Below, in pieces: positions 14,520 through 58,395 of a stretch of DNA of 64,000 nt. The position numbers were made by a program, and so were the translations under genes. The stretch is from Terriglobus albidus (GTDB taxonomy: Bacteria; Acidobacteriota; Terriglobia; Terriglobales; Acidobacteriaceae): assembly GCF_008000815.1 (NCBI RefSeq), contig NZ_CP042806.1:6076001-6140000 (forward strand). Reading direction: 5' to 3'. Position 1 is the first letter of the stretch. Each line of letters opens with the position of its first letter. The notes under the pieces were generated by a model that made no database searches, had not been told where the DNA came from, and was given only the letters and a program-made list of their open reading frames with translations.

Positions 14520-14553
14520 GTGTGTCGACACGTTCATAATCAGGTGCAATCCG

Positions 14554-14692
14554 GTGGGAGCCGTGGGCTTCAGCCCACGGTCTATCGGATCTATAAAATA
14601 AGGGCTTTCGCCCTGGGCCTTTTGTTTGATCAAGAGAACGGCCCAGGGCTAAAGCCCGTTTACTTTTATACCTTTGTCAGCGGGCTGAAGCC
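14554..14692. repeat. Type A multi-hairpin repeat, copy 2 (left part, interrupted by IS4 element)
   Basis: It starts GTGGGAGCCGTGGGCTTCAG and runs through the paired GGGCTTTCGCCC and GGGCTAAAGCCC palindromes into CAGCGGGCTGAAGCC, where the IS begins. The missing right end (GGCTTCAGCCCGCTGCTCCC then ACC) lies at 16126-16148, beyond the IS. Removing the IS restores a normal type A element. Confidence 0.85.
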
Positions 14693-16125
14693 TAATGTCA
14701 CTTACTTTTTGTTTTTGGTAGAGGGCCGAAGTGATGTTTGGAGGGGAAGGATTTGCCTCTACCCCAGACTTCTCTGGGGTAAGAACGTTTTTTCTTTCGT
14801 TGAGGCAGCTTTGCTTTGGAGATGTAATCGAGTAGCCGGTCGTAGGTTTGTTGTCTGAGGACTGGGTCTGGAGAGCAGAGTTTAGGGCTCATGGCATTGA
14901 TCAGGCCGTAGGCCTGGGTGAAGCTCAAGATTCGTGGATCGACGCCGGCCCTGCGGGCGGCGGTGGCCATAAAAGCCCTGACCAACCCATAGGCTACGAC
15001 GGCGATAAGCAACTCTTTCTCTACCGCGGCTTGGCTTTTGCCATGCAGGTGCTCCAGCCGCAGAGTTCCCTTCAGGGTTCTCAGATCCAGTTCTAGATTC
15101 CAGCGTTCTCCGTACAGAGCGACGATCTCGTCGGCCTCCTGCTCCAGCGTGGTGAACAGATAGAGGCTGTCGCGAAAACCCTTGGCCGAACACACGATCA
15201 AGCGGCCTTTTATTTCAGCATCCGCCAGCTCTGGGTATTTTTTGCGTTCCTGAGCGCTGGGTTTCCAGCACACCAAAAACTCCCCCTGAACCGGCAGAGA
15301 TTTACCTCCCAGGGAGAGGGCCCGTGCCTTGCTCAGACGGAACAGAGCTTGATGCCCGCTGCCGATCACTTCCTGCGCAAAAGCGAAGATCCCGAAGCCG
15401 CCATCCCCGATAATCACACTGCCTGCGGGGGCCCGGCTCAGAACCTTCTTCGCAAGGTTTTGCTCGCTCACCGCCTCCGGTCCATACATCGGTCCCCAGG
15501 CTGGACGTTGTGCGATCCCTGTCCGCACATCATGCAGGCAGACCCACTTCATGATCCCCCAGTGACCGAGACCGTGCTGGTTTCGGCCCGCTGGAAATGC
15601 CTTCAAGATATCGGCTGTATGCTCCAGGCGCACACTGCTGCCATCCAGCAGCAGCACCGGGCGACCCCATTTCGCCTCCGCTTCGATCTGACCGCTCAGT
15701 GCGGCCAACGTCTGATCGCAGACCTGTTCCACCGTCTCTGGGGTGATTCGCCCACATGCCCGGGCGTAGCCGCCAGTGTTGGCTGAAATACGTCCCCCTT
15801 GCACGCGCTTGCTGTTGGGTAGCAGCCTATCCAGACGACCACCCAACAGCGCATGAACTGCTTCCTGCTGCGTCCCGTGTTCACTCAGACGCTGCAGCAA
15901 CATCATCTCCACCACTACCGGCAACGTGTAGATTTGGCCACCACCGCCAAATTCCCCCCACGAGATAACAGGAACAACCCGTTCAAACAACTTCAGTAGG
16001 TTTTCTGCTTCCGCCTTGATCTCCATCCAGACCTGACGCGATTCCCAGAGCTCTTACAGATTGCTTCTTATCTCCCTCTCCTGCACACAATTTTCCAACT
16101 CACAGGTACAAAGTAAGTGACATTA
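14693..16125. mobile_element. IS4-family insertion sequence inserted in a type A repeat
   Basis: The element is about 1.43 kb with one transposase. Its ends are TAATGTCACTTACTTT and the exact inverse AAAGTAAGTGACATTA. The inverted symmetry continues outward through the interrupted palindrome, making a perfect 31-bp inverted pair (14678-14708 and 16110-16140). Because the flanks are themselves inverted copies, a target duplication cannot be defined from the sequence, and the borders given are the points where similarity to the type A repeat ends. The transposase stop codon lies inside the left terminal repeat. Confidence 0.85.
14698..16026 (-). CDS. IS4-family transposase
   Basis: The 442-residue protein has the DDE triad in IS4-type context: D128 (LLLDGSSVRL), D208 (IIGDGGFG) and E312. 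The YREK signature is exact (Y305-x2-R308-x3-E312-x6-K319 in YGERWNLELDLRTLK). It should catalyse cut-and-paste transposition. The reading frame is full length with no internal stop, so the element may still be active. The ATG at 16026 lies about 100 bases inside the right end. Confidence 0.93.
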   Translation of the reverse strand: MEIKAEAENLLKLFERVVPVISWGEFGGGGQIYTLPVVVEMMLLQRLSEHGTQQEAVHALLGGRLDRLLPNSKRVQGGRISANTGGYARACGRITPETVEQVCDQTLAALSGQIEAEAKWGRPVLLLDGSSVRLEHTADILKAFPAGRNQHGLGHWGIMKWVCLHDVRTGIAQRPAWGPMYGPEAVSEQNLAKKVLSRAPAGSVIIGDGGFGIFAFAQEVIGSGHQALFRLSKARALSLGGKSLPVQGEFLVCWKPSAQERKKYPELADAEIKGRLIVCSAKGFRDSLYLFTTLEQEADEIVALYGERWNLELDLRTLKGTLRLEHLHGKSQAAVEKELLIAVVAYGLVRAFMATAARRAGVDPRILSFTQAYGLINAMSPKLCSPDPVLRQQTYDRLLDYISKAKLPQRKKKRSYPREVWGRGKSFPSKHHFGPLPKTKSK

Positions 16126-16210
16126 GGCTTCAGCCCGCTGCTCCCACCAATCACACGCGGGAATGCAGCAAACGCCACTCTGCCGATTTCAAAACGCAAA
16201 CAATGTGTCT

Positions 16211-23886: not shown

Positions 23887-24131
23887 GGGAGCCTGAATCA
23901 CCACAAAACCGGGTGCCCATCCATCGCATCGCGATGGGTGGGACCAGCCTGATCGTATTTTGATTGTCATCCTGAGCGTAGCGAAGGACCTGCTTCATCC
24001 CGAGCCGGGTGCCGACCATCACGGAGTAAAGGAGGCCTCCAACCGAAAAACGGGCGCGCGGAGCGCGATATCCCACCCGTTGCTACGCAATGGATGGGCA
24101 CCCAGAGTTTGGGCTCCCACCACAACCGCCC
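23887..24131. repeat. Repeat cluster between GNAT gene and ispD (types E, C, E)
   Basis: No gene is seen. The first type E palindrome (GGGTGCCCATCCATCGCATC... ATGGGTGGGAC) is at about 23910-23944. A type C motif (TGTCATCCTGAGCGTAGCG) is at 23965-23995. An inverted type E copy (CCCACCCGTTGC...GGATGGGCACCC) is at about 24070-24103. The two E copies face each other and could pair into a large hairpin between convergent genes. Confidence 0.7.
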
Positions 24132-57119: not shown

Positions 57120-58395
57120 TGTTCAGTTCCATGACATCCTTTACACCTTGTCTCCAGACATCCTTTACAGGTTTATGCCTGTTTAGGGGTGTTTTTGGAT
57201 GGCATGGAGGAAGGTGGAAGTGGAAGCGCAGCGATTGCGGTTTGTGGAGGCGGCGATGATTGGAGAGCGATCGTTTTCGTCTCTGTGTATGGAGTACGAG
57301 ATTAGCCGTCCGACGGGTTATCTGTGGCTGAAGCGATACCGTGAGCATGGAGCGGCCGGCATGCAGGAAGCCAGCCGCAGGCCTCTGCTGAGTCCCCGTC
57401 AGAGCCCTGCCGAGTTGGAAGAGCAGATCGTGTCTTTACGGCGCCAGCATCCTGACTGGGGTGCACGTAAGCTTCGCGTTCTGCTCGGCCGATCTGGGGT
57501 GAAGGTGCCATCGTCGACCGTACATCGAGTGTTGCGTCGGCACGGTCTGATCCACCGGCTGGACAGCCATCCACAGGCCACTGGCAGCTTCTGTCGCGAG
57601 GCGCCTAATCAGCTCTGGCAGATGGATTTCAAAAGCCCTAAGGGATGGAACGCGCATCTTGGCCCCTTATCCGTGTTGGATGACCACAGCCGCTATGCCT
57701 TGGTGTTGGAGCAACTGTCCTCGGGTGAAGGTCTCGTCGTCCAACAGAGGCTGGATAAGGCGTTCTCTGACTGTGGGTTGCCCGAGGCCATGCTGATGGA
57801 TCACGGCCAGCCCTGGTGGAACGCGCAGTCACCAGGAGGATGGACGCAGCTATCCGTGTGGCTGATGCGGCTGGGCATCCGGCTGTACTTCTCCGGAGTC
57901 CGCCACCCGCAGACCCAGGGTAAGGTGGAACGCTTCCACGGTGCCCTGGAGCGGGCACGGAGAAGGTGCGGGCCGATGGATACGCCGCCTGGCCAGTCAT
58001 GGCTGGACCGCTTCCGGGAAGAGTACAACCATGTTCGTCCCCATGAAGCGCTGGACATGGAAACGCCAGCAGACCACTGGCACCCCAGCCAGCGAGAGTA
58101 CACCGAACCACGTAACCCCGCGTATGCCCCGGATGCCGAAGTGCGCGAGCTCAACAGCAACGGAGCGCTCTGGCTGGACGGACGCAGCTGGCAGGTAGCC
58201 GGAGCCCTGGCTCATCAGCCTGTCCGTCTCGCTCGCATCGATCAACGCATCCTGATCTTCTACGGTGACACGCCCATCCGGGAACTCGACCTCACGGGGC
58301 AGGGTTCCACGATCGTGGAACCCTGCCCCGCAAACTCACTCAATCTGTAAAGGATGTGTGGAGACAAACTGTAAACCATCTCTGGAGACTAGACA
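57120..58395 (+). mobile_element. IS481-family insertion sequence with 8-bp target duplication
   Basis: The 1276-bp element begins TGTTCAGTTCC and ends ...GACTAGACA. Its imperfect terminal inverted repeats extend for about 50 bases, with a shared TTGTCTCCA-x-ACATCCTTTACAG core, and the left end carries the ACATCCTTTACA motif twice, probably transposase binding sites. GCTTCAGC is duplicated on both sides (57112-57119 and 58396-58403). Removing the IS and one copy restores a regular type F palindrome (GGCACGGCTTCAGCCGTGCC). It separates the GH operon from the PL22 gene. Confidence 0.9.
57199..58350 (+). CDS. IS481-family transposase
   Basis: The 383-residue protein has an N-terminal helix-turn-helix (about 10-60: FVEAAMIGERSFSSLCMEYE then SRPTGYLWLKRY) and an rve integrase core with the DDE triad D143 (LWQMDFKS), D201 (LMDHGQPW) and E244 (HPQTQGKVERFH). 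The C-terminal part includes YNHVRPHEALDMETPADHW. It is intact and should be able to catalyse transposition. Confidence 0.94.
   Translation: MAWRKVEVEAQRLRFVEAAMIGERSFSSLCMEYEISRPTGYLWLKRYREHGAAGMQEASRRPLLSPRQSPAELEEQIVSLRRQHPDWGARKLRVLLGRSGVKVPSSTVHRVLRRHGLIHRLDSHPQATGSFCREAPNQLWQMDFKSPKGWNAHLGPLSVLDDHSRYALVLEQLSSGEGLVVQQRLDKAFSDCGLPEAMLMDHGQPWWNAQSPGGWTQLSVWLMRLGIRLYFSGVRHPQTQGKVERFHGALERARRRCGPMDTPPGQSWLDRFREEYNHVRPHEALDMETPADHWHPSQREYTEPRNPAYAPDAEVRELNSNGALWLDGRSWQVAGALAHQPVRLARIDQRILIFYGDTPIRELDLTGQGSTIVEPCPANSLNL

Follow-up and report, generated by a model that had tools for sequence, protein, structure and literature searches.

An IS4-family insertion sequence of Terriglobus albidus with a near-palindromic target in REP-like repeats, and one copy whose target duplication was very probably altered after insertion

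Insertions into REPs at the palindrome axis were described in 2006 for ISRm22 of Sinorhizobium meliloti, an IS4-family element of the subgroup IS4Sa (PMC1525189; PMC2266710), and some ISRm22 copies are reported to have imperfect direct repeats that were ascribed to recombination (PMC1525189). Strong target specificity is described for some members of the IS4 subgroup, for which the same account of the family gives ends of the form -AATR--------WTW, a length of 1400-1650 bp, target duplications of 10-13 bp and the YREK motif that it names for the IS4 family (PMC2266710). IS10 (Tn10), also of the IS4 family, has the preferred palindromic target NGCTNAGCN (PMC4574204), and in Pseudomonas fluorescens SBW25 an IS481-family element is described as inserted at one REP position (PMC11708052). 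REP targeting by IS4- and IS481-family elements is already published, and the elements described here are a further example.

The stretch of T. albidus DNA analysed here (the window, 64,000 nucleotides) contains an IS4-family insertion sequence of 1433 bp, terminal repeats included, at positions 14693-16125 on the minus strand, recognized by its 16-bp inverted termini and by the presence of four full-length copies in the genome. The initial annotation had reported a perfect 31-bp inverted flank at this IS, and the 31-nt arms at 14678-14708 and 16110-16140, which are inverted and spaced 1401 nt apart, are indeed complementary at 100%. To call the whole arm a palindrome flank is right for its outer 15 bp, which are a REP-like half-stem, but not for its inner 16 bp (TAATGTCACTTACTTT), which are the terminal repeat of the element and are found at 24 of 24 ends; the left terminal inverted repeat is at 14693-14708 (plus strand) and the right one at 16110-16125 (minus strand), and this end is common to 12 elements in the genome. 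The transposase gene (14698-16026, minus strand), an open reading frame with profile matches, encodes a 442 aa protein of the DDE type that scores 50.8 bits against Pfam DDE_Tnp_1 (cut-off 23) and 139.6 bits against NCBIfam IS4_1 (cut-off 115), in agreement with the earlier assignment to IS4, and its YREK motif is YGERWNLELDLRTLK at residue 305. The spacing of this motif is Y-(2)-R-(3)-E-(6)-K. Both ends carry TAATGTCACTTACTTT and the length of 1433 bp falls in the range given for the subgroup; judged from sequence by its ends, size, duplication length and YREK motif, the element belongs to the IS4 subgroup of the IS4 family, and it agrees with the published description of that subgroup on every feature tested (PMC2266710). 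By analogy with the family, it would be expected to move by cut-and-paste chemistry.

To the left of the element lies a type A REP-like composite (14553-14692, plus strand) that consists of hairpin 1 (14553-14582), hairpin 2 (14602-14657) and the left part of hairpin 3, and to its right lies the remainder of hairpin 3 (16126-16148, plus strand), which terminates in GCTCCCACC (GGTGGGAGC on the other strand). The left 10-bp target duplication, GGCTGAAGCC (14683-14692, plus strand), has the orientation expected for hairpin 3, and the right one, GGCTTCAGCC (16126-16135, plus strand), is the same except at its two central bases, which read TC instead of GA, so that the two match directly at 8 of 10 positions. 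The target is a 10-bp near-palindrome whose central dinucleotide is free, and because it is nearly palindromic and the two duplications differ as GA versus TC, the flanks of the window copy look inverted.

The genome is a single contig of 6.4 Mb, and a search of it with the 16-bp end, in which up to two mismatches were allowed, gave 24 matches, all without mismatch, that delimit 12 elements: 4 full IS copies (1433 bp) and 8 MITEs (226 bp). A perfect direct target duplication of 10 bp flanks 11 of these 12, and the sole exception is the window copy. The duplications of the 11 perfect elements are GGCTGAAGCC (three elements), GGCTTCAGCC (five), and GGCTAAAGCC, GGCTTTAGCC and GGCTATATCC (one each, the last outside any REP). 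The initial annotation was correct that the window flanks are perfectly inverted, but its statement that no ordinary target duplication is visible is not wholly accurate for a pair that matches directly at 8 of 10 positions in a family that otherwise makes perfect direct 10-bp duplications. Inverted flanks as the usual mode of insertion are ruled out by the direct duplications at 11 of 12 elements. That GGCTTCAGCC might be part of the IS ends everywhere, a check proposed earlier and run here on the mapped copies, is ruled out as well, since the flanking 10 bp vary.

The small elements (L005, L009-L013, L046 and L060) have the IS termini within their 226 bp, and a relative of this family is present in another genome of the genus, G001. 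Their classification as MITEs is supported by these termini, by a 10-bp direct duplication at each of the eight, and by a length into which the transposase would not fit; in an alignment of one MITE with the IS, similarity beyond chance is confined to the terminal 16-17 bp. The IS shares with ISRm22, as that element is described, membership in the IS4 family, copies in REPs at the palindrome axis and some imperfect direct repeats, but ISRm22 has 6-bp direct repeats rather than 10-bp duplications and belongs to another subgroup, host and REP (PMC1525189; PMC2266710). The IS10 target NGCTNAGCN (PMC4574204) closely resembles the Terriglobus target GGCTNNAGCC, but the IS10 duplication is 9 bp rather than 10 bp.

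The pattern GGCTNNAGCC inside a type A REP-like repeat is the site of 11 of the 12 elements (all four full IS copies and seven of the eight MITEs lie in a REP), which upholds the initial annotation in placing the window insertion at a palindromic type A core; the exception is the MITE L046, which lies in GGCTATATCC. Read by eye, 9 of the 11 type A insertions are central in hairpin 1 or 3, the other 2 (L004 and L060) are in a short palindrome within the arm of hairpin 2, and all 11 are in the 12-bp form GGGCTNNAGCCC, in which the core is flanked by G...C. Whereas 1.66 matches to GGCTNNAGCC are expected in the window, 24 are present, an excess that is not due to chance, and there are 717 such sites genome-wide, of which 263 are GGGCTNNAGCCC; the pattern read backwards gives 246. 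If only the 10-bp core were preferred and the insertions were independent, the probability that 11 of 11 would lie in the flanked form is about 3e-5. Among the GGCTNNAGCC matches listed, 85 of 100 have (by eye) TC, GA, TT or AA at their centre, as REP loops do, so the apparent REP targeting is to a large extent explained by the distribution of the motif. The type A repeat itself has 113 genome matches to GTGGGAGCNGNGGGCTTCAGCCC (at most one mismatch), and many of those listed form inverted pairs with a spacing of about 130 bp; high-copy tagged palindromes that are often in inverted pairs are what is expected of REPs and REPINs. The genome has seven Y1_Tnp matches, and in the stretches retrieved none of the seven has type A units.

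Cutting at an extruded cruciform, with a geometry that yields inverted flanks, had been proposed for the window copy. As a single strand, one REP target forms a good hairpin (-10.3 kcal/mol, equalled by 1 of 200 shuffles), and in 9 of 12 cases the element occupies a hairpin centre of this kind. The off-REP site L046, however, forms hardly any hairpin (-1.1 kcal/mol, equalled by 160 of 200 shuffles), and the off-REP site of the MITE in G001 is unexceptional (-4.4 kcal/mol; 30 of 200 shuffles equal). These two insertions rule out an obligatory cruciform and, with folds that are weak or unremarkable, make it seem that the transposase recognizes sequence rather than an extruded hairpin. Since 11 of the 12 elements also have ordinary direct duplications, we regard cruciform cutting as the origin of the inverted flanks as very improbable; it is not needed.

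The window contains a second insertion sequence, an IS481-family element of 1276 bp at 57120-58395 (plus strand) that lies in a class B palindrome with an 8-bp duplication, GCTTCAGC, on each side; this is probably the second element to which the initial annotation referred. It has 14 full copies in the genome, and a class B palindrome adjoins all 14, on both sides in 13 (the left side of L107 is odd). With 11 of 12 elements in type A repeats and 14 of 14 at class B palindromes, both ISs are target-specific, in accord with the earlier judgement that chance is unlikely to have placed two elements in such cores within a single window. The 8-bp duplications (GCTNNAGC) match in 8 of the 14 copies and are mismatched in 6; of these six, L103 and L111 are in the inverted GA/TC form, and L103 and L108 have two like repeat halves, as inter-copy recombination would give. 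The perfect inverted flanks of L103 are 26 bp long and extend past the usual stem. Class B palindromes are also found near three of the seven Y1_Tnp (RAYT-like) loci (L117, L118 and L119), which suggests that they are the REP of those loci. The IS481-family element of SBW25, as described, is like this second IS, and it is unlike the IS4-family element in family and target (PMC11708052). The two unrelated ISs may share out the palindromes, with class A (GGGCTNNAGCCC) used by the IS4-family element and its MITEs, class B (CGGCTNNAGCCG and kin) used by the IS481-family element, and the base pairs beside the shared core as the distinction; we consider the chances of this to be evenly balanced.

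Among 19 genomes of the genus, including the source genome (G000), the IS ends were found only in the source genome and in G001. Relatives of the transposase were found in 1 of the 19 genus genomes at E <= 1e-30, a count that excludes the G001 copies, which are cut off at contig edges, and in 2 of 300 family genomes at E <= 1e-40, the second with 41% identity. For this 41%-identity relative, a search of a limited stretch for exact inverted repeats of at least 10 bp gave no termini, and plasmid records gave no match. In T. albidus DSM 26559, four contig ends encode the C-terminus of a relative, with 87-88% identity. The nine IS ends of G001 are at contig edges and all nine adjoin REP-like repeats; its one MITE, whose duplication matches at 9 of 10 positions, does not. 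Three of these IS ends (L088, L089 and L095) are unpaired. The pairs L087+L093 and L096+L097 were matched solely through their duplication and stem, and both have apparent 11-bp duplications, while the pair L090+L094 was joined by synteny and has the duplications GGCTTTAGCC and GGCTCAAGCC, with centres TT versus CA. Judged from the sequence of this last pair, the window copy is not the only one with an altered centre. The part of the window that is syntenic with the L090/L094 IS (23889-24112) contains neither an IS nor a type A repeat.

The exact empty site of the window copy was not found in G001 or G010, where the orthologous gaps have neither REP nor IS. The genes on the two sides of the window IS, a peptidase gene to the left and a GGDEF gene to the right (both so named by reading their translations), are adjacent in both of these genomes, and a large rearrangement at the window copy, one form of the later rearrangement suggested earlier, is therefore unlikely. 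The same adjacency argues against a single crossover between IS copies at different REPs that would have joined the flanks of two insertions and rearranged the chromosome. For the ISRm22 copies whose direct repeats are imperfect, recombination has been proposed (PMC1525189), and among the six mismatched IS481-family copies L103 and L108 have the two like halves that such hybrids predict. However, the two sides of the window copy form one continuous repeat with a matching stem, and there is no sign of a reciprocal product among the other three IS copies, whose duplications are perfect; we consider a crossover of this kind improbable here.

The orientation of the type A loop relative to the GTGGGAGC tag is nearly fixed, with 113 normal units (at most one mismatch) versus 4 flipped, where the pattern for flipped loops was slightly shorter than that for normal loops. 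The flipped units are the window copy, L076 (a clean flip), L075 (with a doubled core) and L078 (with tag-like sequence on both sides). Because this orientation is so constant, the right duplication of the window copy is probably the altered one. A scan of the retrieved stretches, among them a set of 33 of which L009-L013 also served in the element counts, found two type A repeats with a doubled 10-bp core and without an element, GGCTTCAGCC-A-GGCTTCAGCC in L023 (at 239) and GGCTTCAGCC-GGCTTCAGCC, with no base between, in L075 (at 1491). They are possible excision footprints in which both direct duplications were left behind, and they are the nearest thing to an empty site, but lie elsewhere than the window copy.

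We think it very probable that the IS4-family element prefers GGCTNNAGCC in the form GGGCTNNAGCCC and duplicates the central 10 bp, that the window insertion was an ordinary one, and that one of its duplications was altered later, most likely by conversion. Comparison of the copies demonstrates, at the level of sequence, the target preference and the duplication, and we infer the conversion step at the window copy. The transposase would favour the near-palindromic core, in its 12-bp form, in type A REP-like repeats; insertion would duplicate the central 10 bp, and the window copy would have entered in the same way. The central dinucleotide of one duplication would then have been changed to its reverse-complement form through gene conversion by another IS copy or by the opposite arm, and with this altered centre the flanks would have become a perfect inverted repeat.

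Among the four IS copies 21 positions are variable, of which 7 are two-against-two splits with all three groupings present, and these conflicting splits suggest exchange among the IS copies or parallel change. Positions 817-1433 of the window IS, through its right end, are identical to those of L002, and the L002 flank at that end, in the same IS orientation, starts with GGCTTCAGCCCGCTG, the same 15 bp as in the window copy; conversion from L002 would thus account for the altered dinucleotide. On the other hand, the identity with L002 could reflect common descent rather than conversion, flipped loops exist without an element (L076, L075 and L078), and altered centres also occur in the G001 IS with GGCTTTAGCC versus GGCTCAAGCC. 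Correction templated by the opposite arm would explain the dinucleotide change equally well. The right duplication would in that case have been rewritten, through template switching or conversion, with the element's own left arm as the source: before the change the 31-bp arms (15 bp of REP and 16 bp of terminal repeat) would have had only two mismatches, the arms of L002 and L003 are (by eye) complementary apart from the two central bases of the duplication, and the change seen is exactly what the opposite arm would template. The IS481-family copy L111 has the same pattern within one palindrome, and the 26-bp inverted flanks of L103 are similar, but L103, with the same repeat half on both sides, may also be a recombination product. 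Against arm correction are the 1.4 kb between the arms and the equal prediction made by conversion from L002, and we regard it as a tentative alternative. That the right duplication acquired two point mutations once the element was in place is a doubtful explanation; the centre can change, as in the synteny-joined G001 IS, whose central dinucleotides differ without a flip, but in the window copy both adjacent bases have changed to the exact reverse-complement pair.

A near-palindromic target lets a single altered duplication mimic an inverted flank, which is a trap when insertion sites are read by eye. If the two element families do divide the palindromes between them, these repeats would be separate safe landing sites for the two. 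With the copies described here, REP targeting by IS4- and IS481-family elements, reported in Sinorhizobium and Pseudomonas, is extended to Terriglobus, where a MITE family shares the target.
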